From assembly GCA_017615355.1 (NCBI GenBank), contig JAGAAJ010000033.1, positions 1 to 32,370 of the forward strand: 32,370 nt of DNA, read 5' to 3'. Below are positions 1 through 27,816 of the stretch, piece after piece. A program made the translations under genes and the position numbers. Position 1 is the stretch's first letter. Every line of letters begins with the position of its first letter. Source of the DNA: Prevotella sp. GTDB lineage: Bacteria > Bacteroidota > Bacteroidia > Bacteroidales > Bacteroidaceae. The notes beneath the pieces were generated by a model. The model made no database searches. It saw nothing but the letters and a program-made list of their open reading frames with translations, and was not told the origin of the DNA.

Positions 1-429
1 AAGGACGACAAAGGCTCGCCCATCTTCGGTTTTCAGGTCTTCATCGAAGGCGTGGAGGGCGGCAAGGCCCAAGGCTACTCAAAGAAGGAGGCCCAGCAGC
101 TGTCGTCGAAAGAGACGCTGGAACGCCTGCGCCGCGAACCCCAGTTCATCGACAGCATCTTCGCCGCCAAGTCGGAACGAACGAAGATGGAGGAAGAGCC
201 CACTATGGCCGCGCCGAACATCGAAACATTATCGGAGGCACCGATTTTTCCGGACAATCCGGTAATTCCAGAAAGCCCTGAAATCCCTGAGACTCCAGAA
301 GCCCCTGCGGCCCAATCGGCTCCCCCTGACGACGAGTTCGATCTCTCAGACATCACCCACAATCCCAAGGAGTTGTCAAGGGAAGAGATCATCGCCGCCG
401 CTGAAGAAGCCGCCTTCGCCGAATCATAG
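1..429 (+). CDS. rnc: Ribonuclease III, C-terminal part (partial, 5' end outside window)
   Basis: The frame is open from base 1, so the gene starts upstream of the window. The first ~45 visible residues read like the second half of a double-stranded-RNA-binding domain: an FQVFIEG strand, then a glycine-rich turn followed by GYSKKEAQQLSSKETLERL, which matches the family pattern G-x-G-x-SKKEAE-x-x-AA-x-x-AL-x-x-L. RNase III cuts dsRNA in rRNA and mRNA processing and carries this domain at its C-terminus. After FAAKSER follows an ~80-residue low-complexity acidic/proline tail containing PES-PEI-PET-PEA, encoded by 9-bp repeats, ending at TAG 427-429. The catalytic RNase III domain is not visible, so another dsRBD protein is possible; the call rests on the domain pattern and the known form of the Bacteroidota enzyme. 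Confidence 0.68.
   Translation, partial: KDDKGSPIFGFQVFIEGVEGGKAQGYSKKEAQQLSSKETLERLRREPQFIDSIFAAKSERTKMEEEPTMAAPNIETLSEAPIFPDNPVIPESPEIPETPEAPAAQSAPPDDEFDLSDITHNPKELSREEIIAAAEEAAFAES
268..312 (+). repeat. 9-bp tandem repeat coding (PEx)n
   Basis: Five consecutive 9-bp units begin at 268, 277, 286, 295 and 304, each of the form CCnGnnnnn. They encode PES, PEI, PET, PEA and PAA in the tail of the RNase III-like protein. The period is a multiple of three, so copy-number change would only alter tail length. Confidence 0.75.
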
Positions 430-433
430 TGTG

Positions 434-454
434 TCTGGCGGTTTCCCCGCCAGA
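434..454 (+). terminator. Hairpin downstream of rnc
   Basis: A perfect 8-bp stem, TCTGGCGG (434-441) pairing with CCGCCAGA (447-454), has a 5-nt loop and lies 4 bp after the rnc stop codon. No U-run follows, so it may be a weak terminator, an mRNA 3'-end stabiliser or an attenuator before the glycosidase genes. No convincing promoter is visible between it and the next start. Confidence 0.45.
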
Positions 455-465
455 TTCACCATTAA

Positions 466-3234
<2,769 letters not shown>

Positions 3235-3252
3235 TTGATAATTTTTCTGACA

Positions 3253-3279
3253 ACGAATAATACGAATTACACGAATCAA
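3253..3279 (+). repeat. Three 9-bp tandem units before second GH2 gene
   Basis: Units ACGAATAAT, ACGAATTAC and ACGAATCAA fill most of the 49-bp gap before the ATG at 3284. The end of the array, TACACGAATCAA, recurs just before the start at 9275. Confidence 0.75.
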
Positions 3280-3283
3280 TAAT

Positions 3284-6151
3284 ATGCGTCGCCTGAGTTT
3301 ATTCTTTATTCTTTTTTCCTGTATCTTTAGCAGCACAGCTGCGCAGGAGACTGAGCGTCTCTACCTCAGCGGCACGGGCTGCGACGATATGGTGGAGTGG
3401 GACTTCAAATGCACCGATGGGCGTAACAGCGGCCAATGGACGAAGATTGGTGTTCCCTCGTGTTGGGAGCTACAGGGGTTCGGCACCTACCAATACGGTA
3501 TGCGATTTTATGGCAAGGCCACACCTGAAGGCATCGCCGACGAGAAAGGCCTTTATAAGACCGAGTTCTCGCTGCCGCAGGAGTGGCAAGGCTTCCAGAT
3601 ACAGCTGGTCTTCGAGGCTGTCTTCACCGATGCCAACGTCACCATCAACGGACGCAAGGCTGGCGCAGGCCTTTATCAAGGCGGCTTTACGCGGCACACC
3701 ATCGACGTGAGCGATCGTGTGTTCTTCGGGCCGAAGAAAAAAAACCGCTTGGAGGTGGAAGTCTCGAAGGAGAGCGCAAACGCACAGGTGAACCTTGCTG
3801 AGCGCCGCGCCGACTACTGGAACTTCGGCGGCATCTGGCGTCCTGTTTTTATTGTGGCAAAGCCCATGCAGAACATCAGTCGCGTGGCGATTGACGCAAA
3901 AGCCGACGGCCGTTTCCAAGCCGACGTTTTCCTCAACCGTGCCCTGCCAGGCTGTTCAGTATGTGTCGATATCATCGACACCAAAGGGAAGAAGGAAGCC
4001 ACCAGTCCCGCTATGACTATAGCCAGTGACCAAGCCCATATTGATTTCACCGTCAACAGCCCCAAGCTGTGGACGGCTGAGACGCCGAATCTCTACACCG
4101 CCGTCTTCACGCTGAAGGACGCACAGGGCAAGACCCTCCATGTGGAGCGCCAACGCTTCGGCTTCCGCACCATTGAATATCGCCACTCCTATAACGGTGA
4201 TGACGGTGACGGTGTCTTCATCAACGGCCAAAAAGTTATCATGAAGGGCGTCAACCGCCACAGTTTCCGCCCTGAGAGTGGCCGCACAATCTCCAAGACG
4301 AAGAATATTGAGGATGTATTGCTCATCAAGTCGATGAACATGAACGCCGTGCGACTCAGTCATTATCCCGCTGACCCTGAATTCCTCGATGCTTGCGACT
4401 CGCTCGGCCTCTATGTAGAGTGCGAGCTGCCTGGCTGGCACTGGGCACACGAAACCATCGTGGGCTCACAGATTGCTGAGGATATGGTGACTCGCGATGT
4501 CAACCACCCCAGCATCATCTTCTGGAGCAACGGCAATGAGGGCGGCTTTAACTATGAGCTGGAGTCGGTATTCACGACGCTCGACCCTCAGCAGCGTGTC
4601 GTCCTCTACCCGTGGGCCAATCGCAACGGCTTTGAGACGAAACACTACCGTTCGTGGGGCGAGACAGCGGAGTATATGCGCCAAAAAGAGATATTCATGC
4701 CCACCGAGTTCCTGCACGGTCTCTATGACGGTGGTCACGGTGCAGGTCTGAAGGATTACTGGCAACTAATGATGTCTAATCCCCGCTGTGCCGGTGGATT
4801 CCTCTGGGACCTGATGGATCAAGCCGTTGTCCGTACAGACAAGAACGGCATTCTTGACCCCGTTGGCAACTTCGGATCTGACGGTATCTTCGGCCCTCAC
4901 ATGGAGAAGGAAGGCTCGTACTATACCATCCGCGAAGTGTGGAGTCCCATCCAAATCACAGCTTCCACCTCGGAATACTCAGCTTTCAGCTCCCAGCACT
5001 TATTGCTCGGCAAAGAGCTCGTCATTAAAAACGCATACGACTTTACCAACCTTAAAGACTGTTCGCTTCGCTATCGGTGGATAGACCTGCCATTCTATGG
5101 CGGGACAGCTGAAAAGGTAGTCAGTGAGGGCACAATCACACTACCGTCGGCAGCACCCGGAGAAAGCATCACGCTTCCCTTGCCGAAAGGCAACGGGGCC
5201 ATGCTCGAGCTCACCGCCATCGACCCACACGCCCAAGAGGTGATGACGTGGCGATTCCTGAAGAATCAACAGTTTCCTACTGACTGGTTATTAGGTGTGA
5301 AGTCTCAAACAAAGACTGAGACCGACAACGAGCTCAAAGTGACGGTAGGACCAACCAGCTACACCTTCTCAAAAAAAGACGGGCGTCTTATGGGAGTGAA
5401 GACCGCCAACCACACTTACAGCCTCAGCAACGGCCCTCGCTTCATCGCTGCCAAGCGCGCCGACCGCAGCGACGACGGTTTTTATAATCATGACGACAAA
5501 GAGGCCTTCCAAAAGAAGACGCAATACACAGAATATGCCGACCAAGGCGAATTTGCCGGTTTCGAATTGTCCGACAATGGCCATCTCACTGCCAATTATC
5601 GTCATGGCAGTCTGCAGAAGGTCGACTGGTGGTTCTTCGACGACAGCAGCGTATTACTCTCGGCCAAGGCCACGTTCAACGGCGTGGTAGACCTCATGGG
5701 CATCTGCTTCGACTACCCCGAAGCTCTCGTTAAGAGCAAGCGCTGGGTGGGCCGTGGCCCTTACCGCGTATGGCAAAACCGCCTCGACGGACCGCAATAT
5801 GGCTACTGGCAGACCGACTACAACGACCCCATCCCTGGCGAGAGCTGGCAGTATCCTGAGTTCAAGGGCTATTTCGCCGGCGTGCAATGGATGCAGCTGC
5901 AGACCAGCGAGGGTGCCATCGGCATCTCACCAGCCCACAGTCTCCAAGAGCCAACGTACATCGGGGTCTTCACCCCTCGCGACGGGCGCGACCATATCCT
6001 CTATACACTCCCTGAAACGGGCATCGCACTGTTCAACATCATCCCAGCCGTGCGCAATAAGGTAAACACCACCGACCTCAATGGCCCCAGCGCCCAGCCC
6101 CATTGGGCAAAAGGCCTCGAAGCTCTCTCAGCAAGACTCTGGTTCGAATAA
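3284..6151 (+). CDS. Exported GH2 glycosidase (second, divergent)
   Basis: 955-aa family 2 glycoside hydrolase with a signal peptide (MRRLSLFFILFSCIFSSTAAQ). The order is a jelly-roll N-domain (VPSCWELQGFGTYQYG, ~residues 60-80), an Ig-like domain, a TIM barrel (NRHSFRPESGRT, then [18 protein letters not shown]) and a long C-terminal beta region with GRGPYRVWQNRLDGPQYG. The acid/base is Glu419 in SNGNEGG; the nucleophile is probably Glu475 in PTEFLHG. TEFLHGLYDGGHG replaces the usual SEYxHxxGN, so this is not a classical LacZ and the sugar specificity (galactoside, glucuronide or other) cannot be read from sequence. It lies 49 bp after the first GH2 gene and runs directly into the next gene (TAA-T-ATG). 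Confidence 0.85.
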   Translation: MRRLSLFFILFSCIFSSTAAQETERLYLSGTGCDDMVEWDFKCTDGRNSGQWTKIGVPSCWELQGFGTYQYGMRFYGKATPEGIADEKGLYKTEFSLPQEWQGFQIQLVFEAVFTDANVTINGRKAGAGLYQGGFTRHTIDVSDRVFFGPKKKNRLEVEVSKESANAQVNLAERRADYWNFGGIWRPVFIVAKPMQNISRVAIDAKADGRFQADVFLNRALPGCSVCVDIIDTKGKKEATSPAMTIASDQAHIDFTVNSPKLWTAETPNLYTAVFTLKDAQGKTLHVERQRFGFRTIEYRHSYNGDDGDGVFINGQKVIMKGVNRHSFRPESGRTISKTKNIEDVLLIKSMNMNAVRLSHYPADPEFLDACDSLGLYVECELPGWHWAHETIVGSQIAEDMVTRDVNHPSIIFWSNGNEGGFNYELESVFTTLDPQQRVVLYPWANRNGFETKHYRSWGETAEYMRQKEIFMPTEFLHGLYDGGHGAGLKDYWQLMMSNPRCAGGFLWDLMDQAVVRTDKNGILDPVGNFGSDGIFGPHMEKEGSYYTIREVWSPIQITASTSEYSAFSSQHLLLGKELVIKNAYDFTNLKDCSLRYRWIDLPFYGGTAEKVVSEGTITLPSAAPGESITLPLPKGNGAMLELTAIDPHAQEVMTWRFLKNQQFPTDWLLGVKSQTKTETDNELKVTVGPTSYTFSKKDGRLMGVKTANHTYSLSNGPRFIAAKRADRSDDGFYNHDDKEAFQKKTQYTEYADQGEFAGFELSDNGHLTANYRHGSLQKVDWWFFDDSSVLLSAKATFNGVVDLMGICFDYPEALVKSKRWVGRGPYRVWQNRLDGPQYGYWQTDYNDPIPGESWQYPEFKGYFAGVQWMQLQTSEGAIGISPAHSLQEPTYIGVFTPRDGRDHILYTLPETGIALFNIIPAVRNKVNTTDLNGPSAQPHWAKGLEALSARLWFE

Positions 6152-6152
6152 T

Positions 6153-9100
6153 ATGAAACGACTCCTCCTGTCATTTATCATTTGTCATTTGTCATTTAGC
6201 ATCAACGCTGCTGACACGCATAATCCTTGGACATTCTGGTACTGGATGTACGGGGCCGTCAGCGAGGCGGGCATCAAGGCCGATCTACAGGCTATGAAAG
6301 ATGTAGGCCTCGGTGGCTGCTACCTCATGCCCATTCGAGGATGGGAAGAAAAGCCTGATTATCAAGGTGATGTTCAGCAGCTAAGTCCGAAATTCTGGGA
6401 GATGGTGGACTATGCTATGCAACAGTCTGACTCTTTGGGACTCGGCATGGGCATTCACATCTGTGATGGCTTCGCCCTCGCTGGTGGTCCTTGGATAACG
6501 CCCGCAGAATCGATGCAGAAAATTGTATCGACGCAGACCCTCATTACGGGAGGTACTGGCAAATGCGATAGTCTCATTCAACCAACTAGTTACGAAGGCT
6601 ACTATGAGGACATTGCCTGTTTCGCCATACCCTCAGAGCACGGTGAACTGTGCGTAAAACCGGCTACACCTGTCATCACATTCTCATCTTCCATAACCCG
6701 TGATGAGAAAGGCACCTACCGTGCTTCAGAGCCTGGTTGGATTCAGTACAAATACCCTGAGACAGTTACCTTCCGTAGCGTCGAGATCATCCCCTCTGGG
6801 AATAACATCCAGTCACAGCGTCTCAAGATGCTGGTGAGCAACGATGGTGAGAAGTTCACACTCGTGAAACAGTTTGAGCCGGCTCGTCAGGGTTGGCAGG
6901 ATCAGGGCTACGGTTTCACCTACGCCATTCCCAAAACCTCTGGTCGCTATTTCCGTTTTGAGTGGACGCCAGAAGGCACTGAGCCAGGTTCCGAGGACCT
7001 GGATGCCGCCAAATGGAAGCCCGTGCTGAAACTGAAGGACATCCGTATGAGCGACCAGCTGCGCATCAATCAATGGGAAGGCAAGAGTGGTCTTCTTTGG
7101 CGTCTCGCTCCAGAGACCACTAAAGAAATCCCTGATGAAGACTGTGTCAAACTGAAGGACATTCGTCGCATAGAGCTTAAAGATGGACGATTGGCAGAGC
7201 CGCTTCCTAAGGGCAATTGGCTCGTTGTTCGTATTGGCCATACCTCCACAGGCTATACCAACGCTACCGCTGGTGGCGGCAAGGGTTTGGAGTGCGACAA
7301 ATTCTCAGAGGCTGTTGTCAGGAAACAAGTGAGCCAATGGTTTGGGAAGTTTATGGAGCGTCCACATAGCAATGTCGTAAAATATATGCATGTCGACTCT
7401 TGGGAGTGCGGTTCGCAGAACTGGAGCGACAACTTCGCTAAAGAATTCCTGCATCGTCGTGGCTATGATCTTATACCTTGGCTGCCTGCTATGGTGGGCA
7501 TTCCTCTTGAGAGTGCCGCCAAGAGTGAACAGGTGCTCAGAGACGTACGGCAGACCATTGATGAACTGAAGAATGAAGTGTTTTTTAAGACTGTTAGCGA
7601 CTGTGCCCATGCCTATGGTATGCAGCTTTCTGCAGAATGTGTTGCCCCGACGATGATGAGTGACGGCATGAGCCACTATCGCTATGCCGATATCCCCATG
7701 GGCGAATATTGGCTCAACTCTCCCACTCACGACAAACCCAATGACATGTTGGATGCCATCAGCGGCGGACATATCTATGGCAAGAACATCATCCAGGCTG
7801 AAGGTTTCACGGAGGTAAGAGGTGTATGGGACGAGACGCCTGCCAGCATCAAGTCATTGCTGGATCGTAACTTCGCCTTGGGCATGAATCGTCTGTTCTT
7901 CCACGTCACCGCTCATAACCCCTGGCTCGACAGGAAACCAGGAATGACACTCGATGGAATCGGTCTTTTCTTCCAACGTGACCAGACGTGGTTCCCTGAG
8001 GCCAAAGGGTTAGTGGACTATGTCACACGCTGTCAGAAGCTCCTGCAAAGAGGCAAACCTGTGATAGATATTGCTGTCTATACTGGGGAGGAAATGCCAA
8101 GACGAGCCCTCACGCCTGACCGTATTGTATCCATGTTACCAGGACTATTTGGAGCAGAGCGTGTGGCTTCAGAACAGAAGAGATTGGCTAATGTCGGGCA
8201 GCCGATGGAGGAATCGCCTGTAGGTGTGAACCATTCCGCCGGCATCCTCGATCTGAAGGACTGGATCAATCCGCTGCACGGCTATCAATACGATTCGATG
8301 AACAAAGACGCCCTGCTTAACATGCCATTTAATTACAAGGTGCTTGTCATCCCTGAGGGCTGTCTTGTCTCCGACGAAGTCCGCACCCGTATTGAAGCGC
8401 TTCGCCAGCAGGGCGTTGTCATCATTGACAAGCCCTTCACGCAAGATTCTATTCCAGGCGTACCCCGTGATGTGAAGATGAGCTATGGTGAAGGCATCGC
8501 ATACACCCATCGACGTGATGGCAATACGGACATTTATTTCATCGCTAACCAGACGTATAAGGAAGAACCTGTATTGATGGCGTTCAATGTCAGCGGTAAG
8601 CAGGTAGCATTCTATGATGCCGTTACAGACCAATACAGCTGTCCCAATTACTGGGAGCGGAACGGGCATACTGTCGTAGAGTGCGGTTTCCCCTCAGCAA
8701 GCAGTTCCGGGTTCTTTATCTTTTCAGATAGTGTTCTCACCTCACAGGAAGAAGCCCCCTTTGTAACGAATAATTCCCAAATGGAAACAAAATATCTGCT
8801 TTGGGATATTTCCTTCCGAGAGACTGGTTTGACATTAAAGAGCCAGGAGCTCTTCGACTGGAGTCAGCATGCTAACGATAGAATTCGATATTTCAGCGGA
8901 CATGCACGCTATACAACGACGCTGAAGCTGAAGAAGGACGAAGTTCCGCAAGGCAGTGCTTGGCTCTCTTTCCCCAATGTGAAAGATATCGCCCATGTCT
9001 GGATTAATGGCAAGGACTATGGCATTGCCTGGACAGGACCTTATGAAGTGGAGATCACAGGAGCCTTGAAGAAAGGCAAGAATATGATCGAGATAGAGGT

Positions 9101-9254
9101 TGTCAACACCTGGCACAATGCCATACGTGGAGCAGACCAAGGGAAAGCACCTTTCGATGGAATCTGGACAAATGCCAAACATCGTACCAAGGGTGACGGT
9201 TTATTGCCAGCAGGACTTCTCGAGCAACCTGTCATTTTTACAACCACGTATTAA
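6153..9254 (+). CDS. Exported GH106-like alpha-L-rhamnosidase
   Basis: 1033-aa protein. The start at 6153 is preferred over an in-frame upstream codon because it begins a signal peptide and lies 1 bp after the preceding stop, suggesting translational coupling. N-terminal NPWTFWYWMYGAVSEAGI and KADLQAMKDVGLGG, and central HVDSWECGSQNWSDNF followed by EFLHRRGYDLIPWLPAMVG, fit family GH106, whose characterised members release L-rhamnose from pectic rhamnogalacturonans. Glu418 in DSWE is a likely catalytic or metal-site residue. An F5/8-like beta-sandwich (~residues 190-290, YPETVTFRSVEI) interrupts the barrel, and a C-terminal galactose-binding-like domain (AHVWINGKDYG) ends the protein. The hydrophobic core of the signal peptide is encoded by four 7-bp repeats. 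Confidence 0.83.
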   Translation: MKRLLLSFIICHLSFSINAADTHNPWTFWYWMYGAVSEAGIKADLQAMKDVGLGGCYLMPIRGWEEKPDYQGDVQQLSPKFWEMVDYAMQQSDSLGLGMGIHICDGFALAGGPWITPAESMQKIVSTQTLITGGTGKCDSLIQPTSYEGYYEDIACFAIPSEHGELCVKPATPVITFSSSITRDEKGTYRASEPGWIQYKYPETVTFRSVEIIPSGNNIQSQRLKMLVSNDGEKFTLVKQFEPARQGWQDQGYGFTYAIPKTSGRYFRFEWTPEGTEPGSEDLDAAKWKPVLKLKDIRMSDQLRINQWEGKSGLLWRLAPETTKEIPDEDCVKLKDIRRIELKDGRLAEPLPKGNWLVVRIGHTSTGYTNATAGGGKGLECDKFSEAVVRKQVSQWFGKFMERPHSNVVKYMHVDSWECGSQNWSDNFAKEFLHRRGYDLIPWLPAMVGIPLESAAKSEQVLRDVRQTIDELKNEVFFKTVSDCAHAYGMQLSAECVAPTMMSDGMSHYRYADIPMGEYWLNSPTHDKPNDMLDAISGGHIYGKNIIQAEGFTEVRGVWDETPASIKSLLDRNFALGMNRLFFHVTAHNPWLDRKPGMTLDGIGLFFQRDQTWFPEAKGLVDYVTRCQKLLQRGKPVIDIAVYTGEEMPRRALTPDRIVSMLPGLFGAERVASEQKRLANVGQPMEESPVGVNHSAGILDLKDWINPLHGYQYDSMNKDALLNMPFNYKVLVIPEGCLVSDEVRTRIEALRQQGVVIIDKPFTQDSIPGVPRDVKMSYGEGIAYTHRRDGNTDIYFIANQTYKEEPVLMAFNVSGKQVAFYDAVTDQYSCPNYWERNGHTVVECGFPSASSSGFFIFSDSVLTSQEEAPFVTNNSQMETKYLLWDISFRETGLTLKSQELFDWSQHANDRIRYFSGHARYTTTLKLKKDEVPQGSAWLSFPNVKDIAHVWINGKDYGIAWTGPYEVEITGALKKGKNMIEIEVVNTWHNAIRGADQGKAPFDGIWTNAKHRTKGDGLLPAGLLEQPVIFTTTY
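6171..6198 (+). repeat. Heptanucleotide repeat (TCATTTR)4 in a signal peptide
   Basis: Units TCATTTA, TCATTTG, TCATTTG and TCATTTA begin at 6171, 6178, 6185 and 6192, only 18 bp after the start codon. They encode the SFIICHLSF core of the GH106-like protein's signal peptide. The period is not a multiple of three. Confidence 0.9.
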
Positions 9255-10739: not shown

Positions 10740-12569
10740 ATGTTCAGACTCATTACCATTTTCCTTACACTCTTCCCACTATGGGCCACTGCACAGAGCA
10801 ACACATTCACGGTGACAGTTGAGCCCGGCGAGTATACTATCGAGCAGGCTTTGCAGCAGGCACGCCTCGCCCGTCTGCAAGGTCGTGAGCAGGATGGTTC
10901 CCCCGTCCTGAAACTGCGGCCAGGCACCTACCGATTGTCACAGCCCGTCATTCTACGCCCCGAAGACAGCGGCACGCACATTATTGCTGAAGGCGACGTG
11001 CGACTGAGTGGCGGTGTGGTCATCAACGACTGGAGCAAACAAGGCAACCTCTGGGTGGCTGACGTTCCTTTGTGGAACGGGCGTCCGCTGGAGTTCCGCC
11101 AGCTGTGGGTGAACGGTCGAAAAGCCGTCCGTGCCCGCGACGTCAGCGACTTTGAGCAGATGCATCGCATCCTCGGTGTAGACAAGCAGCACGAGATTAT
11201 CTATGTGCCCCGTAAGAGTGTTGAGTGTTTAGGGTTAAGTGTTAAGAGACATTTGCCCAAGGAAAAGTCACTCAACACTCAACATTCAACACTCAACACA
11301 CTCGAGATGGTCCTTCACGAGATGTGGTGCATAGCCAACCTACGCATCAAGGATATGCGTGAGCAGGGCGATTCTGTTGCTCTGACGTTCCATCAGCCTG
11401 AGAGTCATATCCACTTCATGCACCCGTGGCCGTCGCCAATGGTTACAGAAGATGGTAAGCAAAACTCCGCTTTCTATCTGACGGATGCTAGCGAGCTATT
11501 GGATGAGCCAGGTGAGTGGTGGCTGGACATGCCAAATCGGAAGCTTTATTACCTGCCGCTACCCGATGAAAATATGCAGACGGCTGAGGTCGTAGCACCT
11601 GCATTGGAAACATTATTGATGGCTGAGGGCACGCCCGACGAGCCCGTAAAAGATATCACCATCGAAGGAATCACCTTCGAGCATAGCACGTGGCTCAGGC
11701 CCAGCATCAAAGGCCACGCACCGCTACAGGCCGGCATGTTTATGATTGAGGCATACAAGATTCGTCCGCAAATCAGCCGTCCCAATGGTGACCACAAGCT
11801 CGACAACCAAGGCTGGGTAGGTCGCCCCGCCGCAGCTGTCGCCATCAACTGCGCCGAGAGTTTTTCCCTCTCAGGCTGCACCTTCCGTCATACCGCCTCC
11901 ACCGCCCTCGACTACCACCGCTATATCAACGGAGGAACCGTCGACCGCTGTACTTTCAACGATATAGGCGGCACAGCCATCCTAGCAGGCAGTTTCGGAC
12001 CAGAGGGTCACGAAGCGCATCTGCCGTATAACCCCTCCGACCAACGCGAGATTTGCACCAACCTGACCATCATCAACAACCGCATCGACGATGCCGCCAA
12101 CGAGGACTGGGGCTGCCTCGGCATAGGCGCTGGGTTTGTACGTGGCATCCGCATTGAACACAACGAAATCAGCAACGTCTCCTATACTGGCATCAGCCTT
12201 GGCTGGGGATGGAACCGCCAGCCTTGTGCCATGGCCGACAACGTGGTTCGTGCCAACTACATCCACCACTACGCCCGCCACATGTACGACACCGCCGGCA
12301 TCTACACGCTGGGCGCACAGCCCAACACCATCATCGAGGAAAACGTCGTGGACAGCATCTACGGCCCTTCTTATGTGCACGACCCTGAGCATTGGTTCTA
12401 TCTCTATACCGACGAGGGCAGTAGCGGCATTACCTTGCGCCATAACTGGACACCCAGCGAGAAATACCTGAAAAATGCCGTCGGCCCCAACAACGTATGG
12501 GAAGACAACGGCCCACAGGTGAGCAACAGCGTCAAAGCACGCGCAGGAGTAATGAGAGGTAAGAATTGA
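10740..12569 (+). CDS. Exported right-handed beta-helix hydrolase, GH141-like
   Basis: 609-aa protein with a signal peptide (MFRLITIFLTLFPLWATAQ). The opening pattern, VLKLRPGTYRLSQPVILRPE, then RLSGGVVINDW and FRQLWVNGRKAVRARDV, is typical of parallel beta-helix glycosidases. GH141 is the best fit: it includes an alpha-L-fucosidase acting on rhamnogalacturonan II and a xylanase. GH120-type beta-helix enzymes are an alternative. The C-terminal half (~370-600) shows irregular beta-helix turns with Asn ladders (NNRIDDAANEDWGCLGIGAG, RIEHNEISNVSYTGISLGWG). Residues ~160-187 form an insertion encoded by heptanucleotide repeats in inverted orientation, where the N-terminal domain would be expected to continue. 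It begins 13 bp after the esterase gene and ends the CAZyme run. Confidence 0.75.
   Translation: MFRLITIFLTLFPLWATAQSNTFTVTVEPGEYTIEQALQQARLARLQGREQDGSPVLKLRPGTYRLSQPVILRPEDSGTHIIAEGDVRLSGGVVINDWSKQGNLWVADVPLWNGRPLEFRQLWVNGRKAVRARDVSDFEQMHRILGVDKQHEIIYVPRKSVECLGLSVKRHLPKEKSLNTQHSTLNTLEMVLHEMWCIANLRIKDMREQGDSVALTFHQPESHIHFMHPWPSPMVTEDGKQNSAFYLTDASELLDEPGEWWLDMPNRKLYYLPLPDENMQTAEVVAPALETLLMAEGTPDEPVKDITIEGITFEHSTWLRPSIKGHAPLQAGMFMIEAYKIRPQISRPNGDHKLDNQGWVGRPAAAVAINCAESFSLSGCTFRHTASTALDYHRYINGGTVDRCTFNDIGGTAILAGSFGPEGHEAHLPYNPSDQREICTNLTIINNRIDDAANEDWGCLGIGAGFVRGIRIEHNEISNVSYTGISLGWGWNRQPCAMADNVVRANYIHHYARHMYDTAGIYTLGAQPNTIIEENVVDSIYGPSYVHDPEHWFYLYTDEGSSGITLRHNWTPSEKYLKNAVGPNNVWEDNGPQVSNSVKARAGVMRGKN
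11218..11299 (+). repeat. Inverted heptanucleotide arrays inside the GH141-like gene
   Basis: Left arm 11218-11248 is made of GTGTTGA, GTGTTTA, GGGTTAA and GTGTTAA plus GAG. Right arm 11270-11299 is ACTCAAC, ACTCAAC, ATTCAAC, ACTCAAC plus AC. The right arm is an imperfect reverse complement of the left, with a 21-nt spacer, so the mRNA could fold into a long hairpin inside the reading frame. The frame stays open through it. Confidence 0.85.
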
Positions 12570-19248: not shown

Positions 19249-19254
19249 AATAAT

Positions 19255-19286
19255 CGAAATAACGTCATAACGAAATAACGTCATAA
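19255..19286 (+). repeat. Perfect 16-bp direct duplication before holB
   Basis: CGAAATAACGTCATAA occurs at 19255-19270 and again at 19271-19286, followed by further CGA-rich sequence up to the holB start at 19308. It fills more than half of the 59-bp gap between the receptor gene and holB. Confidence 0.9.
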
Positions 19287-19307
19287 CGACAGAAACGACA
19301 AAAGGCA

Positions 19308-20435
19308 ATGACCTTTCATGAAGTAATAGGACAGGACGAGTGCAAGGAGCGCTTGCTGCAGATGGTCAGCGAAAGCCGTCTGCCGCATGCCATCATGCTG
19401 TGCGGCCCTGCAGGCATCGGCAAGCTGGCGCTGGCCACCGCCTTCGGCTGCCACTTGCTGTCTCAGGGTAATCTCGTACCCACGAAAGAAGAGCCCGCGA
19501 TGCTTCGCAACCTGGCCCATCCTGACCTGCACTTCACCTACCCCACCATCAAGCTGCCGTCGATGAGCGCCGACCACAAGCCCGTCAGCGATGACTTTGC
19601 CCGCGAATGGCATAGCCTCATCACTACCGAGGGGCCGTACTTCTCGATGGACCAATGGCTGGCGGCTATCGGCGCCGAGAACCAGCAGGCCATCATCACG
19701 GCCGGCGAGAGCGACGACCTGGTACGCAAGCTCAGCCTAAAGTCGAGCCAGGGCGGCTATAAGGTCAGCATCATCTGGCTGCCCGAGCGCATGAACCAGG
19801 AATGTGCCAACAAACTGCTGAAACTCATCGAGGAGCCACCCAGCCAGACGGTCTTCCTCATGGTTTGCGAAGAGCCCGACAAGCTGCTGGAGACCATCCG
19901 CAGCCGCGTGCAGCGCATCGACGTGAAGCGATTGCCCGTCAGCGTCATTGAGCAGGAATTAGTGGCACGACGCGGCATCGACCCTGAGCAGGCTCAGCGC
20001 ATCGCCCGACTGGCTGGCGGCTCGTGGCTCAGGGCCTTACAGGAGCTGCAGGCCGGCACGGAGAACGAGCAGTTCCTCGACCTCTTCATCCTGCTGATGC
20101 GCCAGGCCTACAAACGCGACGTGAAGGGCATGAAGGCGTGGGCCGATGCGATGGCCGCCTTCGGACGTGAGAAGCAGAAGCGCTTCCTCAGCTATTTCCT
20201 CCACATGATGAGAGAGAGCTTCATGTACAACTTCAAGCAGCCCGACCTCTCCTACATGACACAGCAGGAGGAGGACTTCGCCCGCAACTTCGCCCGTTTC
20301 ATCAACGAGGGCAACATCCTCGCCATCAACGACCTCATCAACCTCGCCATACGCGACATCGGCCAGAACGCCAACGCCAAGATTGTGTTCTTCGACCTGG
20401 CCTTGCAGATGACAGTATTGCTCATACAAAAATAA
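19308..20435 (+). CDS. holB: DNA polymerase III delta' subunit (clamp loader)
   Basis: 375-aa AAA+ protein. FHEVIGQDECKERLLQMV opens the clamp-loader fold; a Walker A motif GPAGIGK lies at residues 33-39, followed by LALATAFGCHLLSQ. The sensor/arginine region reads TIRSRVQRIDV, the equivalent of the SRC motif (TxxSRCQ) of clamp-loader subunits, here with Val in place of Cys. Delta' is the stator of the complex that loads the sliding clamp at primed DNA. The order holB-ricT-gldH is common in Bacteroidota and supports the call. ricT begins 7 bp after the stop. Confidence 0.88.
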   Translation: MTFHEVIGQDECKERLLQMVSESRLPHAIMLCGPAGIGKLALATAFGCHLLSQGNLVPTKEEPAMLRNLAHPDLHFTYPTIKLPSMSADHKPVSDDFAREWHSLITTEGPYFSMDQWLAAIGAENQQAIITAGESDDLVRKLSLKSSQGGYKVSIIWLPERMNQECANKLLKLIEEPPSQTVFLMVCEEPDKLLETIRSRVQRIDVKRLPVSVIEQELVARRGIDPEQAQRIARLAGGSWLRALQELQAGTENEQFLDLFILLMRQAYKRDVKGMKAWADAMAAFGREKQKRFLSYFLHMMRESFMYNFKQPDLSYMTQQEEDFARNFARFINEGNILAINDLINLAIRDIGQNANAKIVFFDLALQMTVLLIQK

Positions 20436-20441: not shown

Positions 20442-21647
20442 ATGGAAAAGAAGAAAGAGTACCCCATACGCACGGGTTGTGACCGCGGGCTCTGCGCCGC
20501 CGCCATAGGCCGTCAGGACCGCCAGCTCAACACCTACGACTGGCTGGCCGATGTGCCAGGCAATGCCGAGTCGACCGACCTCGTCGAGGTGCAGTTCAAG
20601 CACACCCGCAAGGGCTATTACCACAACATCAACAACCTGCCGCTGAAGAAGGGCGACATCGTGGCCGTCGAGGCCAGCCCGGGCCACGACATCGGCGTCG
20701 TCACGCTGACGGGCCGTCTTGTCTACCTGCAGATCAAGAAAGCCAACCTGAAGAGCGCCGACGACATCAAGCGCGTCTACCGCCTGGCCCGTCAGAGCGA
20801 CATGGACAAATTCTACGAGGCAAAGGCACGCGAGCACGAGACGATGATCGAGAGCCGCGAGATTGCCAAGGGTCTTGGGCTGCAGATGAAGATTGGCGAC
20901 GTGGAGTATCAGGGCGACGGCCAGAAGGCCATCTTCTACTATATCGCCGACGAGCGTGTGGACTTCCGCCAGCTCATCAAGGACCTCGCTGCCGCCTTCC
21001 ATGTGCGTATTGAGATGAAGCAGATTGGTGCTCGCCAGGAGGCCGGCCGCATCGGCGGCACAGGTCCCTGTGGACGCGAGCTCTGCTGTGCCACGTGGAT
21101 GAAGAACTTTGTCTCGGTCAGCACGGGTTCCGCCCGTTTTCAGGACATCTCGCTCAACCCGCAGAAGCTGGCCGGCATGTGCGCTAAGCTGAAATGCTGC
21201 CTCAACTACGAGGTGGACGACTATATCGAGCACGGTCGCAAGCTGCCCAGCCGCGAGATCGTCTTGCAGACACAGGACGCCGACTATTTCTATTTCAAGA
21301 GCGACATCCTGGCCGGACTTGTCACCTACAGCACCGACAAGCGTTTGGCCGCCAACCTCGAGACCATTACCGCCGAGCGGGCGAAGGAGATCATCGAGAT
21401 GAACCGCCGCGGCGAGAAACCCGTCGACCTGCAGCCTGATGACCAGCGCAAGGAGCCGGAGCCCTCAGCCGACCTGCTGGCAGGCGACAGCATCACCCGC
21501 TTCGACAAGGCGAAGAAGAAGAAAAAGAAGAAGAACAAGTCTCACTCCTCAGAAGAGGAGAGAGGAGAGAGGAAAGAGGAAAGCAAAGGAGAGAGAAAGG
21601 ATGACTCTCACAAGGAGAAACCCCAAAAGGAGGAGCAGCCGAAGTAA
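20442..21647 (+). CDS. ricT: PSP1-domain protein RicT (YaaT)
   Basis: 401-aa protein with the PSP1 domain (VEVQFKHTRKGYYHN, then YLQIKKANLKSADDIKRVYR and IADERVDFRQLIKDLAAAF). The cysteine clusters CGRELCC (Cys210, 215, 216) and CAKLKCC (Cys247, 252, 253) match the positions that help hold Fe-S clusters in the Bacillus RicAFT complex, which assists RNase Y in mRNA maturation. Its role in Bacteroidota is not settled. Beyond ~residue 340 the protein runs into a lysine/glutamate tail (KKKKKKKNKSHSSEEE, then GERKEESKGERK), encoded by a purine-rich tract from ~21510. The tail overlaps the next gene by 47 bp. Confidence 0.9.
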   Translation: MEKKKEYPIRTGCDRGLCAAAIGRQDRQLNTYDWLADVPGNAESTDLVEVQFKHTRKGYYHNINNLPLKKGDIVAVEASPGHDIGVVTLTGRLVYLQIKKANLKSADDIKRVYRLARQSDMDKFYEAKAREHETMIESREIAKGLGLQMKIGDVEYQGDGQKAIFYYIADERVDFRQLIKDLAAAFHVRIEMKQIGARQEAGRIGGTGPCGRELCCATWMKNFVSVSTGSARFQDISLNPQKLAGMCAKLKCCLNYEVDDYIEHGRKLPSREIVLQTQDADYFYFKSDILAGLVTYSTDKRLAANLETITAERAKEIIEMNRRGEKPVDLQPDDQRKEPEPSADLLAGDSITRFDKAKKKKKKKNKSHSSEEERGERKEESKGERKDDSHKEKPQKEEQPK

Positions 21648-22122
21648 CAGCCTCGGCAAGACTCTCTTTCTCATAGCGGCAATGGCATTGGCTGTTGCCG
21701 CTTGCAGTCGTTTGCCTATCTACAGCCATTATGAGCACATCGACGGCGAGAGCTGGCGACGCGACGACACCCTCACCTTCACCACCACCGTCCGCGACAG
21801 CGCCAACTATCACCTCATTCTGGGCCTGCGTGCCACCAATGCCTATCCCTACAAGCAGCTCACCGTCAATGTTGACGTGAGGGTCAACGAAAACGAAAAC
21901 CAAAACGAAAAGTTCTCCCCCCTCCCCTCTCCTCTAACCATCGACCTTACCGATGCCGAAGGCGATATGCTGGGTAGCGGCGGTACCATCTATTCTTACG
22001 ACGTGCCCATGGGTGACGTTGTGCTCGGCAGCAGCGACACGCTCACCGTCAGCATCCATCATGCCATGAGCAAATTCTCGCTGCCCGGCATTACCGACAT
22101 CGGCCTGACGGTGGCACAATAG
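21601..22122 (+). CDS. gldH: Gliding motility lipoprotein GldH
   Basis: 173-aa lipoprotein. The start at 21601 lies inside the 3' end of ricT; it gives a basic n-region, a hydrophobic stretch and the lipobox AVAAC with Cys35. A later Met (at 21682) would leave no basic n-region. The body, YSHYEHIDGESWRRDDTLTF then NYHLILGLRATNAYPYKQLT, matches GldH. In Flavobacterium, GldH is needed for gliding; homologues persist in non-gliding gut species with unclear role. Residues ~95-112 (NENENQNEK, then a Pro/Ser stretch) are a low-complexity insertion made by a hexamer repeat plus a pyrimidine tract. It ends 42 bp from the convergent gene. Confidence 0.85.
   Translation: MTLTRRNPKRRSSRSNSLGKTLFLIAAMALAVAACSRLPIYSHYEHIDGESWRRDDTLTFTTTVRDSANYHLILGLRATNAYPYKQLTVNVDVRVNENENQNEKFSPLPSPLTIDLTDAEGDMLGSGGTIYSYDVPMGDVVLGSSDTLTVSIHHAMSKFSLPGITDIGLTVAQ
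21886..21911 (+). repeat. Hexamer tandem repeat in gldH
   Basis: Units AACGAA, AACGAA, AACCAA and AACGAA begin at 21886, and a C/T tract follows at 21915-21935. The 26-nt array recurs with one mismatch on the other strand at 23430-23455. Confidence 0.85.
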
Positions 22123-24128: not shown

Positions 24129-24230
24129 TCCGGAGCCTCCAAAATTTCCTGCAGAGCCTCCGGAATTTTCTGAGGAGCCTCTTTATTCTGCTGAGGAGGC
24201 TCTTTATTTTGCTGCGGAGGCTCCTGAGTC
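24129..24230. repeat. Imperfect ~21-bp tandem units built on GGAGCCTC/GAGGCTC
   Basis: The clearest copies, 24171-24191 and 24192-24212, are TGAGGAGsCTCTTTATTyTGC and differ at two positions. Diverged copies flank them. All contain GGAGCCTC or its complement-like GAGGCTC, so the tract can also fold on itself. On the minus strand the 21-bp period translates as 7-residue units (QQNKEPP). Confidence 0.75.
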
Positions 24231-24417: not shown

Positions 24418-25293
24418 CTAAACAAAAAGTCTGACGATGAGGATGGCAGCGGCGAAGAGAAGACCGATGGCGAGAGTCATGAGCAGCGAGGCTGTCAGGG
24501 TGTAGAGGAATGTCTTCCGCTTGCTATAGCCTGACAACTGCTTCAGGGGCAGTAGCGCGAGGAGCAGCACCAATAAGCTGAGGAGCGAATTGTCGATGCA
24601 GAAAAAGTCCATCACCACGCTGACGATGGAGTACATGTTGGCCATGTAGACGGTGGCCACCACCAGCTCGGAATAGCGCAGGTCGGGGATGGCCGGACAC
24701 TTGCGGAAGAACGGATAGAGGAACGCCGACAGGAGGACAAGGCTGAACAGGGAGAAGAGCGTAGGGAAGGACGTGAGGAAGTCAGCAGCTTCCTTTATGA
24801 TGTTGGTGGCCTTCACGGTTGCATCCGTCACATTCTCCACGGTTTCTGTTGTCGCGCTACCCGACTCGTTGACTTGCATCACCACTTCCTCTTTCTTGAA
24901 GCTGTTCTTACCCATGATGTTGAGTCCGCCCTGCACGGCGAGTGAGAGCGTTGAGAGCAGGAAGAACATCTTGAAGGGTGGGAAGTAGGCCATCTGCATG
25001 CCTGAGAGGTAGTCGCGGATCATGAATCCTGGACGCAGCAGCAGGTCGCGCAGGGTGCGGAACATGCCGCGGTTGCCCAGTCCCCACACGTCGAGGAACA
25101 GGAGGAAGGCCCTCTTGAATGAATAGCGCCCGATCTTTGACGACTGTCCGCAGCGAGGACAATAGTTCCCCACATACTCCGTACCGCAAGTGGAGCAGCG
25201 ATGCTGCTGCTCCACCATCGGCGCTACCTCGTGAGGACGCCGTTGCCACAGGCGAAATGCCCGTCTGCGCACTTGGAAATCTCTTCTGTTCAT
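24418..25293 (-). CDS. DUF3667 zinc-ribbon membrane protein
   Basis: 291-aa protein. Residues 20-50 (PHEVAP, then CSTCGTEYVGNYCPRCGQ) form the zinc ribbon with Cys33, 36, 45 and 48, typical of DUF3667 proteins. DVWGLGNRGMFRTLRDLLLRPGFMIRDYLSG is the conserved amphipathic block. Four to five membrane segments follow (FPPFKMFFLLSTLSLAV; LFSLFSLVLLSAFLYPF; VATVYMANMYSIVSVVM; two at the C-terminus). Residues ~130-160 form a polar Thr/Val/Glu loop. Function unknown. It starts 30 bp after the malQ stop, so it probably shares the malQ transcript, though a metabolic link is not implied. Confidence 0.87.
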   Translation of the reverse strand: MNRRDFQVRRRAFRLWQRRPHEVAPMVEQQHRCSTCGTEYVGNYCPRCGQSSKIGRYSFKRAFLLFLDVWGLGNRGMFRTLRDLLLRPGFMIRDYLSGMQMAYFPPFKMFFLLSTLSLAVQGGLNIMGKNSFKKEEVVMQVNESGSATTETVENVTDATVKATNIIKEAADFLTSFPTLFSLFSLVLLSAFLYPFFRKCPAIPDLRYSELVVATVYMANMYSIVSVVMDFFCIDNSLLSLLVLLLALLPLKQLSGYSKRKTFLYTLTASLLMTLAIGLLFAAAILIVRLFV

Positions 25294-25323
25294 TCTTTCA
25301 TCAGGCGCTGAACCCTTCCCTGG

Positions 25324-27816
25324 CTATTTGCGTCCGCTGTTGGTGATGAGCTCCTGCAGCTGGGCATTGAAGCCGTCGGCGGCGAGGAGCTGCTCGATGG
25401 TGAGGTGCATGCGGTAGCGCCAGTAGTGACGCGGGTTGGCAGGGATGTTGATCCTTTCTGCGTTCTGGTCGGGCAGGCGCAGCTGCTCGTCGATGCTGAG
25501 CCAGTCCTGCAGGGAGAGGAGGCAGAGCATGGAGGGCGAGGTGAGATGACGGCTCACGATGTCCTTGGCCAGCCAGCCGGGCAGCGGATGGGGTGCTGCA
25601 TCTGAGCGGTAGAGCATGGTGTTGTAGTATTTCTGCGTGCGCTCCCAGTCCTCGTCCCACCATTGGCGCAGGGTGGCCATATCGTGTGTCGAGATGGTGC
25701 AGACGGAGCGGTAGGGATTGCGGCTCAGGTGGCCGAACTCTACGGCAGGGTCTTTGGGCATCGACTGAATCTCGAGGGAGAGGATGCGCAACTCGTTCAT
25801 CACCCAGGGCACGCAGTCGGGCACCATACCCAGATCCTCGGCACAGCAAAGCATCCGCGTGGCCTGCGTCAGACGCGGCAGCTTCTTCATGGCCTCCTGA
25901 TACCAGAAATGATTATTGCGGCGATAGAAGTAGTCGTTGTAGAGGTTCCAGAAGCGCTGGCGCTCGTCGTCGTTGAACAAGGTCTGGAACTCGGGCAGCT
26001 TCGTGGCATTGATGCGGGGATGCCAGGCATTCTCCTGGCGCTTGTGGTCCTTGAGGAAGAACTCCTCGTGGAAGGGCACGCCGTAGGCCTCTATCTCCTC
26101 GCGTGTCATGGGCAGCGAGGGCTGGAACTGGCCGTAGAGACCGCTCTTCTCAGGCATGGGAATCTCCCAGATGCGGAAGAATCCGAGGACGTGGTCGATG
26201 CGGTAGGCGTCGAAATACTGGGCCATCTTGCTGAAGCGGCGCACCCACCATTGGCAGCCGTCCTTCATCATCTCGTCCCAGTTGTAGGTGGGGAAGCCCC
26301 AGTTCTGTCCGTCCTCGCTGAAGGCATCAGGCGGCGCACCTGCCTGTCCGTTGAGGTTGAAGTAGCGTGGCTCGGCCAACACGTCGGCTCCGTCACGATT
26401 GACGCCGATGGGGATATCGCCCTTCAGGATGACACGCTGCTGGCGGGCATGCTCGTGGGCGCTACGCATCTGCTGGTCGAGGAAGAACTGGATGAAGTGC
26501 CAGAAGGTCTCCGTGCCGCCTTTGTCGCGGTTGACGCAGAACTGGGCATAGGGCTCGAGCCACTCCTTGTTCTGCTCGACGAAATCCTTGTAGGCCTTGG
26601 AGCGACGCACCTTGGCACCCTCCTGGGCAAAGAGCTCGCGCAGGTATTCCATCTTCGTGGCGAACATACGCTCGTAGTCAATCTGCGGCAGGGCATTCAG
26701 CTCCTGGCGCAGCTGCTCGTAGTGGGCTCGGCGTTTCTCATCTTTTAATATGGGGAGCTGACGGAAGTCCATATACTGCGGATGCAGGGCGTAGATGCTG
26801 ATGCTGTTGTAGGGGTAGCTGTCCTGCCACGAGCCTGTGGTGTTGGTGTCGTTGATGGGCAGCACCTGCAGGATGCGCTGACCAGTCTTTGCACACCAGT
26901 CGACCATCAGCTTCAGGTCGCCGAAGTCGCCCACGCCGAAGCTACCCTCTGAACGAAGTGAGAAGACGGGGATGACGGTGCCAGCACCCTTCCATGCATA
27001 GAAGGGGAAGTAGGCCTGCGGCAGCTCGTAGACGAAGACATCGTCTTTCTGCACACCTACGCTGGGCAGCTCGATGAAACGGTTGTCGCCCGTCTCCCAA
27101 TAGCGGTCGGCATCGGTCAAGTCAGGATCCACACGTATCTCCTGAGTATCCTCTGCGCTCTTTCGCGGCTTTCTGCCAGCCATATTGGCCGCGATGAACT
27201 TAAACTCAAACCTTCCAGGCAGGCGGTCGGCATTGAGGCTCACCACCCACTCGTGACACTCGTGCTCGGTCATCATCAGGGCCAAGTCGGGATCCCAGCC
27301 GCCTAAGTAGGCAGCAGCACCAACGATGGCCAGGCACTCGCCCTGACGCAGCTGCGGAGCGCGCACCTTCAGGCGTACCGTACGCTGATACTCTACAGGC
27401 GTGCTGAGCTGGCGCTCGCGACGCATCACACAATCGGTGAAGGCCGAGGAGTAGAGGTAGGCGTCCTCAGGGATGTCGAGCCAATGGTCATACACCACAT
27501 AGCGGGTGCCCTTGACGGCAGCCAGCTCCAGGCGATGGGGCTCCATCAGCCATTCGTGACGCACCTCCTCATCGCCGCGACAAACGCTATAGTAATAGTC
27601 CAGAAAGGGTTGAGGGTTAAGAGTTGAGTGTTGAGAGACATTTGTTGAGAGTTTAGAGACGTTACTCGACGGAAGCTCACACCACCAATGCAAGCCGTCG
27701 TTCGTTTGCATAGGTTGTGTGCAAACTGCCTTTGACGAGGTGCCGTCAAGCAGGTTCAACACCAGCTGTTCGCCGAAATTGGTCTGATACTCAAGGTTGA
27801 AAAGAAGTTTCATCAT
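25324..27816 (-). CDS. malQ: 4-alpha-glucanotransferase (amylomaltase) with CBM20 domains, GH77
   Basis: 830-aa enzyme that transfers alpha-1,4-glucan chains between maltodextrins during starch or glycogen use. Two N-terminal starch-binding (CBM20-like) domains (~1-110, ~120-235: GECLAIVGAAAYLGGWDPD) precede the GH77 barrel (FSLRSEGSFGVGDFGDLKLM; SWQDSYPYNSISIYALHPQY). Catalytic residues are Asp541 in RIDHVLGFFRIWE, Glu660 in CAEDLGM and Asp712 in STHDMATLRQWW. No signal peptide, so it acts in the cytoplasm. Two adjacent ATGs (27816 and 27813) can start it. Residues ~50-72 in the first CBM20 are an insertion encoded by heptanucleotide repeats, between HWWCELP and LDYYYSV. Confidence 0.93.
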   Translation of the reverse strand: MMKLLFNLEYQTNFGEQLVLNLLDGTSSKAVCTQPMQTNDGLHWWCELPSSNVSKLSTNVSQHSTLNPQPFLDYYYSVCRGDEEVRHEWLMEPHRLELAAVKGTRYVVYDHWLDIPEDAYLYSSAFTDCVMRRERQLSTPVEYQRTVRLKVRAPQLRQGECLAIVGAAAYLGGWDPDLALMMTEHECHEWVVSLNADRLPGRFEFKFIAANMAGRKPRKSAEDTQEIRVDPDLTDADRYWETGDNRFIELPSVGVQKDDVFVYELPQAYFPFYAWKGAGTVIPVFSLRSEGSFGVGDFGDLKLMVDWCAKTGQRILQVLPINDTNTTGSWQDSYPYNSISIYALHPQYMDFRQLPILKDEKRRAHYEQLRQELNALPQIDYERMFATKMEYLRELFAQEGAKVRRSKAYKDFVEQNKEWLEPYAQFCVNRDKGGTETFWHFIQFFLDQQMRSAHEHARQQRVILKGDIPIGVNRDGADVLAEPRYFNLNGQAGAPPDAFSEDGQNWGFPTYNWDEMMKDGCQWWVRRFSKMAQYFDAYRIDHVLGFFRIWEIPMPEKSGLYGQFQPSLPMTREEIEAYGVPFHEEFFLKDHKRQENAWHPRINATKLPEFQTLFNDDERQRFWNLYNDYFYRRNNHFWYQEAMKKLPRLTQATRMLCCAEDLGMVPDCVPWVMNELRILSLEIQSMPKDPAVEFGHLSRNPYRSVCTISTHDMATLRQWWDEDWERTQKYYNTMLYRSDAAPHPLPGWLAKDIVSRHLTSPSMLCLLSLQDWLSIDEQLRLPDQNAERINIPANPRHYWRYRMHLTIEQLLAADGFNAQLQELITNSGRK
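27607..27662 (+). repeat. Heptanucleotide repeat array inside malQ
   Basis: Eight 7-bp units on the plus strand start at 27607: GGGTTGA, GGGTTAA, GAGTTGA, GTGTTGA, GAGACAT, TTGTTGA, GAGTTTA, GAGACGT. The stretch 27628-27644 matches 11239-11255 in the GH141-like gene at 16 of 17 positions. malQ is read on the opposite strand. Confidence 0.9.

Follow-up and report, generated by a model that had tools for sequence, protein, structure and literature searches.

The stretch of DNA analysed here, referred to throughout as the window, is a 32,370-base contig of a Prevotella draft genome (contig 108 of G000, which has 3,246,813 bases in 147 contigs and is 89.73% complete), and the closest named relatives of one of its genes, a GH141-type glycosidase, are Prevotella and Prevotellaceae records. 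Strand-asymmetric arrays of seven-base units are dispersed through G000, where period 7 is specifically enriched. The initial annotation of the window had taken such arrays to be independent tandem repeats like the short tandemly repeated repetitive (STRR) sequences, the heptanucleotide tandem repeats of cyanobacteria. That picture has to be revised, as roughly one array in five is accompanied by an inverted partner, in many cases together with a conserved core, and part of the system at least is therefore a palindromic element. The palindromic modules are probably small, non-autonomous insertion elements that have spread; the solo arrays would then be lone or decayed arms together with slippage products of the same process, a reading to which we give a probability of roughly 55%.

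The arrays were counted in a final sample of 900,212 bases, or 28% of the genome, made up of stretches picked by contig number rather than by content and of the window, which was added to them (32,370 bases, 5 of the 111 period-7 arrays). Scoring was identical for every period (+1 for a match, -3 for a mismatch, a score of at least 10, and shorter periods excluded). Periods 4 to 12 gave 1, 1, 33, 111, 27, 26, 1, 2, and 16 arrays, respectively, which bears out the initial annotation in its proposal of a genome-level process at period 7 (111 arrays against 27, 1, 1, and 2 at periods 8, 5, 10, and 11). The comparison with shuffled sequence that it had suggested was made on 308,287 bases from every seventh contig, with five rounds of dinucleotide shuffling, and gave 38 observed period-7 arrays against 0.2 per shuffle; periods 5, 10, and 11 gave 1, 1, and 0 arrays in the same sample. 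A pool of 600,000 bases from 22 genomes of the same genus contains 33 arrays of period 7 and 6, 7, and 4 of periods 8, 10, and 11, with array counts that vary widely from genome to genome.

The seven-base unit has a compositional signature. Either C or G is missing from the units of 89 of the 111 arrays, as compared with 22.5% of random heptamers from G000, and 45 distinct units are present among the 111. Because the signature is also found outside open reading frames (ORFs), in 25 of the 35 intergenic period-7 units, avoidance of stop codons alone is insufficient as its cause. At periods 6, 8, and 9, units without C or G make up 5 of 33, 8 of 27, and 2 of 26. The 6-, 9-, 16-, and 21-bp arrays annotated in the window are present in the output of Tandem Repeats Finder (TRF), but the 6- and 9-bp arrays do not belong to one class with the heptamers by this signature (5/33 and 2/26 against 89/111); both periods are divisible by three and ordinary in coding DNA. 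A fixed TCA or TGA motif was considered as the essence of the unit, being present in 66 of 111 units (23% at random), yet many units do not have it, and it was therefore dropped as a defining feature. The related pattern TCANNTC is spread sporadically, over 41 of 296 genomes and 27 of 140 genera with G000 included; its control is not independent, as the reversed pattern matches the same kind of array (38 hits and 54 control hits in G000), and only the sporadic spread is used here.

The palindromic organization was detected by searching for the reverse complement of the unit within 150 bp of each array, with the reversed unit and the complemented unit, which are of like composition, serving as controls. 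An inverted partner accompanies 21 of the 111 arrays in G000, against 4 for the reversed and 3 for the complemented unit; direct partners number 11. The corresponding counts (reverse complement, reversed, complement, direct) are 9, 1, 1, and 10 for 33 arrays in the same-genus samples, 6, 2, 2, and 10 for 45 arrays at loci related to the GH141 gene, and 4, 0, 0, and 3 for 13 arrays in samples from the phylum. Near pairs in G000 (110 arrays, at a lower threshold) comprise 10 inverted, 3 direct, and 2 ties, followed by 6, 4, and 3 in the genus, 5, 6, and 0 at the GH141 loci, and 6, 2, and 0 in the phylum. A complete module consists of a purine-rich heptamer array, a short core, a spacer, the inverted core, and a pyrimidine-rich heptamer array, and such modules are found both within genes and between them. 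The resulting heptamer-armed hairpins occur in many copies and measure approximately 70 to 170 bp, many of them less than 100 bp. There are 23 long hairpins in the G000 sample, 11 of which have period-7 arms by manual reading and 5 by a stricter script rule.

Two families of core adjoin the arrays. In family A the heptamer array is joined to the half-core GAAGAATTTGCTNCCGC, and in family B to GTTGAGNGACNTTTG; 20 of the 111 arrays adjoin a core (10 for each family), as compared with 1 at control positions shifted by 3 kb. The family A core, GCGGNAGCAA, is variable at the base that follows GCGG, and the spacer between its two halves ranges from 12 to 115 bases across 22 distinct pairs. A likeness to the integron core site was considered and is not claimed. 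With one mismatch allowed, family A is present in 132 of 249 genomes of the genus, G000 included, and the reversed control, by manual count, in 17 genomes, once in each. There are 23 copies in G000 and 93 in G535, which with G034 and G532 belongs to the genomes richest in the family, and copy number follows period-7 density with a Spearman coefficient of 0.65 (P = 8e-4; 23 genomes, small samples). Family B is found in 21 of the 249 genomes; G000 has 20 copies, G416 has 23, and G458 has 11, and the control has no match in any of the three. Arms occur in viral contigs as well: among 57 stretches that contain the 17-base half-core without a mismatch, 35 have a heptamer arm as scored by a fixed rule. 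A scan of ten proteins from three of the viral contigs gave a head maturation protease in L295, which is among the 35; another contig, L315, has an integrase gene and an arm too short for the fixed rule. Plasmid and phage collections yielded two records each, one of them an E. coli plasmid, and one phage record, without annotation, contains an inverted pair of GAAGAAT-type arrays.

In the window, TRF recovered all four of the heptamer arrays named in the initial annotation (2572-2605, 6171-6202, 11217-11246, and 27606-27635) along with further ones at 11269-11299, 21553-21583, and 3298-3318 and a short one at 21914-21932. The family B elements of the window and their host genes are the following.

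10740..12569, + strand: GH141-type glycosidase host gene (609 aa), matching PF21231 (E = 8e-64) and Beta_helix (PF13229); 80 related loci were kept for comparison.
11216..11246, + strand: left, purine-rich arm of a family B palindrome lying in frame in the GH141 gene, a degenerate heptamer array (TRF).
11247..11268, + strand: core and loop of this palindrome, resembling L004, L182, L201, and the window at 27606.
11269..11299, + strand: right, pyrimidine-rich arm, a CACTCAA array and reverse complement of the left arm (TRF, inverted-partner test).
25324..27816, - strand: GH77 4-alpha-glucanotransferase host gene with a CBM20 domain (830 aa; PF02446, E = 3.5e-137, and PF00686).
27606..27662, - strand: one-sided family B arm (heptamer array and core), in frame in the GH77 gene as an insert of approximately 14 residues (TRF; core pattern at 27630-27644).

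Two loci had been described as sharing one sequence, and 11217-11255 and 27606-27644 do match at 84.6% over 39 bases; a core pattern resembling both has 20 matches in G000. Three CACTCAA units in a row, with up to two mismatches, occur at 34 overlapping places in G000 and at none for the reversed control. Folded as RNA, the GH141 module (11210-11305) has a z-score of -5.1, and none of 200 shuffles folds as well. The GH77 insert is absent from all 22 relatives whose DNA covers the site (7 of the 29 relatives do not cover it).

Other modules lie inside conserved genes. Family A modules in four G000 genes encode the same kind of peptide, in which the first arm is charged and the second hydrophobic or polar, and by Pfam the hosts are a Peptidase_U32 protein, an AAA_11/AAA_12 helicase, an OEP outer-membrane efflux protein, and chorismate synthase (AroC). 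The helicase has two modules, the second from family B, and further modules are hosted by an ABC protein, a DHODB-type protein, and a GH78 protein. The in-frame modules measure 84 to 125 bases and give alike peptides in unrelated genes. The clearest case of in-frame insertion is chorismate synthase, where the insert is found in G000 and in none of 29 orthologues. It occupies a loop that is naturally variable in length among the 30 aligned proteins and puts 38 residues in place of 5 when compared with the solved structure 5z9a. In the predicted model, which has a mean predicted local distance difference test (pLDDT) score of 72.5, residues 280-303 fall below 50; residues 1-9, 20-22, and 107-129, some of them conserved, do so as well, and as the model is only fair the low score at the insert lends weak support. 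Outside the genus, the carA gene of Bacteroides finegoldii TSDC17.2-1.1 (WP_007752280.1; NZ_OY725930.1, labelled a plasmid) has two inverted arms, both in frame. Neither arm is present in Phocaeicola massiliensis; in Parabacteroides distasonis the right-hand site holds a CGATTCT/CAATTCT array, and the left one holds heptamer-like sequence only.

The arrays as a whole are unevenly placed. Intergenic arrays number 35 of 111 against 8.7 expected by length, and 19 lie within the first 40 codons of an ORF against 9.7 expected; the last 30 codons hold 6 (7.4 expected), and the ORF interiors, with 51 against 85.2, are depleted. The description of the arrays as lying nearly always in linkers, tails, or signal peptides holds for the window but not genome-wide, where enrichment is strongest in intergenic sequence and gene interiors have fewer arrays than expected. 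Of the arrays inside ORFs, which were called by length and counted from 150 aa upward, 58 of 65 have a sense unit that is stop-free in every frame. Of the remaining 7, 6 would meet a stop in the frame used if the array were perfect and are rescued by a variant unit. Stop-free reading of this kind is what genuine coding sequence would show. The in-frame presence of arrays in coding sequence, as described in the initial annotation, is supported. Since the sense strand reads open, the peptide contributed by a module in G000 has some 14 to 45 residues and is placed at loops where these were compared; alternatively, the module supplies the hydrophobic part of an N-terminus. The solo arrays of the window are the following.

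2572..2605, + strand: solo array of ACATCAG and ACATCTT heptamers in a GH2 protein (gene 487-3234), where it lies in a linker (TRF, GH2 domains).
3298..3318, + strand: short array of TTTATTC heptamers in a second GH2 protein (gene 3284-6151), within its signal-peptide-like N-terminal segment (TRF, signal peptide judged by eye).
6171..6202, + strand: solo heptamer array (TCATTTA) encoding the hydrophobic stretch of a signal-peptide-like N-terminus in a GH106 protein (gene 6150-9254; TRF).
21553..21583, + strand: solo array of AAGAGGA heptamers in a PSP1-domain protein (gene 20442-21647), within its charged C-terminal tail (TRF).

The TCATTTA unit is also used in inverted pairs, at L187 4278-4384 and L008 12271-12340. 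At these two places and at L188 18797-18966, a start codon lies between inverted heptamer arms, the right one of which codes for the hydrophobic N-terminal stretch of a glucosaminidase, an exo/endonuclease-like protein, and a putative SusD-like protein. It is possible that these arms form start-codon hairpins.

The units turn over at a fixed site. Between the YVP motif and EMVLHEMWC of the GH141 proteins, a loop contains a heptamer array in 11 of 81 proteins (manual reading, with DNA for 21 loops), and many of the proteins have a short loop there. CACTCAA, AAATCTC, and CTCAAC-type units are used by the window gene and its two closest relatives, which together form a clade, and AATTCTC and CTTCACT units by the sister pair L053 and L054. 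As sister species differ in their heptamers, change in the array or in its unit outpaces speciation, and the remark in the initial annotation that different heptamers are in use applies equally to this one site. At L055 and L121 the loop has a GC-rich dispersed insert encoding peptides of the PSPNERG or PSPWERAG type, from which it appears that inserts of unrelated kinds can enter this loop. The use made of the GH141 tree was confined to where it places the sister species. Label changes on that tree were tried as evidence of clustering and rejected, since all 500 shufflings of the labels give a number as low as the 5 observed.

Variation between strains, which had been anticipated, is suggested by one overlap of contig ends and by the arrays that sit at contig ends, 5 of 106 against 0.56 expected. 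Contigs C96 (L184) and C117 (L187) overlap at approximately 97% identity at the 3' end of aroA (5-enolpyruvylshikimate-3-phosphate synthase) and then continue into different heptamer arrays. Two co-assembled strains are the simplest reading of this difference, and mis-binning is possible. Array copy number showed no clean difference between G003 and G026, in pieces that are approximately 90% identical and in which one array boundary meets masked N.

Signs of possible copying come from within the modules. In G375, three modules within 10 kb have one 46-base spacer at 91 to 100% identity and arms that differ in their heptamer variants. The flanks of the three have no significant similarity (best E = 0.064), and a search of this genome, which is 62% complete, found the spacer in those three copies only. 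The arms within one element are alike, with a mean of 0.833 against 0.772 when permuted (P = 5e-5), across the 22 distinct family A pairs; 23 were listed, L255 is the same place as L347, and L349, with a left side that has no array, is among the 22. With one pair per genome (9 pairs) P is 5.5e-4. That the arms of one element are more alike than those of different elements fits fold-back template switching, a process described, in the accessible part of its source, as making inverted-repeat arms alike and inverting spacers (PMC8604942). It would account for the similarity of arms and not for dispersal.

Put together, spread as an insertion element would begin with an enzyme that copies the module to a new site, after which the arms may change by slippage of whole heptamers while fold-back template switching between them would keep the two alike. 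Selection would remove insertions that stop or break genes, and loops, tails, leaders, and spacers would keep theirs. The solo majority, about four-fifths of the arrays, may be slippage products alone. A bolder proposal is that this is a new protein-inserted class of mobile palindrome, in which half-modules of a GC-rich core and heptamers insert as inverted in-frame pairs around host sequence across a major gut and rumen genus. Its exchangeable arms would turn over between sister species, so that conserved enzymes keep receiving fresh sequence in their loops and signal peptides, and the system would be carried by phages too; this we offer tentatively, and on balance we lean against it.

Several observations weigh against spread as insertion elements. 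No inverted partner is present for 90 of the 111 arrays and neither core lies beside 91. With 11 of 111, direct partners outnumber the controls too, and they are at least as frequent as inverted partners among the same-genus arrays (10 against 9) and at the GH141 loci (10 against 6). Polarity has exceptions, the 5' arm being G-rich in 11 of 14 cases in G000, 9 of 9 in the same genus, 3 of 6 at the GH141 loci (two equal), and 3 of 4 in the phylum. The modules at L181 and L004 fold weakly (z of -1.3 and -1.95), and the GH77 arm has no hairpin of its own (z of -0.2). A target-site duplication is not definable at the modules because the repeat arms have no sharp ends. The stop-free reading of arrays within ORFs is partly built in by construction, as ORFs are called by openness and length. 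The three same-spacer copies of G375 are on one contig within 10 kb, and so local recombination is possible there. Outside the genus family A is near background, in 37 of 197 other genomes of the order (reversed control 7), with 1 to 3 hits per genome and all but one with a mismatch. In B. finegoldii the CarA arms flank a native segment common to relatives, so that two inverted arms are not necessarily a single inserted cassette. The comparison with orthologues covered two of the host genes, chorismate synthase and GH77. Finally, no mobilizing enzyme was found in G000, at its 89.73% completeness, with the profiles Y1_Tnp and RVT_1. Both had 0 matches, with 27 of the 40 genomes searched, G000 among them, positive for Y1_Tnp, and with RVT_1 as the reverse transcriptase profile tried. 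A reverse transcriptase or a transposase of repetitive extragenic palindromic (REP) sequences, which the initial annotation had suggested looking for in genomes that bear the repeats, is accordingly rejected as the maker of the arrays within the scope of these two profiles and this completeness.

An alternative is that the arrays are ordinary microsatellites, formed by slipped-strand mispairing with its preference for seven bases in many bacteria and kept where a stop-free reading is tolerated, with the inverted pairs as by-products. A heptanucleotide bias has been reported for many bacteria (Mrazek 2007, as cited in the accessible portions of PMC4679880 and PMC4692102), and the 90 arrays without an inverted partner would follow directly. 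Local growth also predicts the 45 distinct units and the differing units of sister species at one site, and the arrays at contig ends, including the two that differ between overlapping ends, are in keeping with it. Slippage, however, leaves unexplained the conserved non-repetitive cores at dozens of sites and the inverted partners in excess of controls, as well as the in-frame modules with alike peptides and the one spacer at three sites, and we consider this explanation rather unlikely. The RNA folds raise another alternative, in which inverted arms are kept by selection as mRNA structures such as terminators or start-codon controls and are not mobile DNA. The folds of three elements are strong (z of -12.6, -8.75, and -5.1), arrays are enriched between genes, and the arms at L187, L008, and L188 enclose a start codon with the right arm as a hydrophobic N-terminus. 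Modules also lie inside genes (AroC, the helicase, the U32 peptidase), though, z is above -2 in three of the six elements folded, and an Rfam scan of the window, L196, L181, L182, and L172 gave 0 matches; we regard selected hairpins as a very remote explanation.

Transposase-driven spread in a narrower sense has to be weighed too. REP doublets forming hairpins (REPINs) are inverted doublets with a variable spacer and solo halves, and the modules resemble them in these features and in forming genus-wide families. The modules could then be non-autonomous derivatives of an insertion sequence (IS), that is, miniature inverted-repeat transposable elements (MITEs), or of a REP-associated tyrosine transposase (RAYT), moved in trans by a transposase. 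Inverted arms are present, with ends too repetitive to define a target-site duplication, and the search for an autonomous element covered the Y1_Tnp and RVT_1 profiles. Unlike REPINs with a RAYT, the modules are found in a genome with no Y1 transposase match, and the variable base after GCGG in the family A core leaves no fixed GTAG tag; the tag CGTC was not searched for. Tandem-array arms are not described in the accessible text of PMC3733652, and a REPIN or MITE origin seems improbable. The BrickBuilt MITE of Porphyromonas gingivalis is likewise a dispersed Bacteroidales element with a tandem repeat, described in the available sections of PMC4596501 as a 23-base unit with small inverted-repeat ends, always intergenic. 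Unlike in that description, the repeats here are the arms, and many lie inside genes.

By analogy, the closest known kind is the Rickettsia palindromic element (RPE). Palindromic elements of Rickettsia and Wolbachia are described, in the parts of PMC10969869, PMC3767692, and PMC3733652 that were available, as short, many-copied, protein-compatible palindromes of several families, which lie in frame in unrelated genes and encode a conserved peptide. The Prevotella modules are likened to them by description and not by sequence. They too are palindromic and in frame in conserved genes, and are absent from the orthologues of AroC (0/29) and GH77 (0/22). Unlike in RPEs, the arms are tandem heptamer arrays with a unit that differs between elements and species, the CarA arms flank native sequence, and family A is spread over a genus of Bacteroidota. 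Heptanucleotide repeats are the other point of comparison. The accessible portions of PMC4679880 and PMC4692102 describe TAACTGA in Beggiatoaceae, with sets also in five Bacteroidetes, and GGGNATC in Xanthomonas and Nostoc. The arrays in G000 share with such repeats the enrichment of period 7 over other periods, the dispersal, the intergenic excess, and the sporadic occurrence among lineages. They differ from the repeats as published there, of one unit type and mainly intergenic, in their 45 distinct units, in the inverted pairs that bear cores, and in the many arrays that lie in frame in coding sequence. Unlike the direct arrays of STRR sequences, 21 of 111 have a palindromic organization (controls 3 and 4), and the other 90 fit the STRR pattern. 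No heptamer-armed palindromes in Prevotella genes were found among the results listed for open-licence papers, a scope outside which most subscription papers fall.

Other repeats were seen beside the heptamer system. In the window, 24133-24223 contains intergenic 21-bp arrays of GAGCCTCC type in inverted orientation; this family has 24 matches in the 900-kb G000 sample (up to 4 mismatches; reversed control 1), where period 21 stands out, with 34 arrays at score 12, as compared with 6 for period 18 and 4 for period 24. A 16-bp tandem array at 19250-19289 lies between two genes, directly before the gene at 19308, and the 1111-aa protein encoded at 28008-31343 has no Pfam match at E = 0.001. Elsewhere, inverted arms of short units with mostly AT-rich centres are found at L181 5479-5645, L191 1833-1993, L171 506-671, and L019 18469-18658 (units of 8 to 9 bases) and at L133 6254-6512 (7 bases). 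The stretch at L133 falls within approximately 500 bases that are missing from the related genome G026. TGGGAC...GTCCCA hairpins stand in tandem at 21-base spacing at L009 16302-16356 and L016 19276-19327, and the long hairpins at L184 2108-2273 and L176 157-248, with arms of CGCAGAG-type repeats, are perhaps a further dispersed family.

Should the insertion-element reading be correct, the in-frame insertion of palindromes, best known from Rickettsia and Wolbachia, would also operate in core enzymes of Prevotella-type bacteria, and change by whole heptamers would be an added engine of variability. It would explain the alike peptides in unrelated proteins and would caution against reading them as homology. 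It would also provide a culturable Bacteroidales setting for studying the causes of the period-7 dominance of bacterial microsatellites and for the entry of palindromes into coding sequence.

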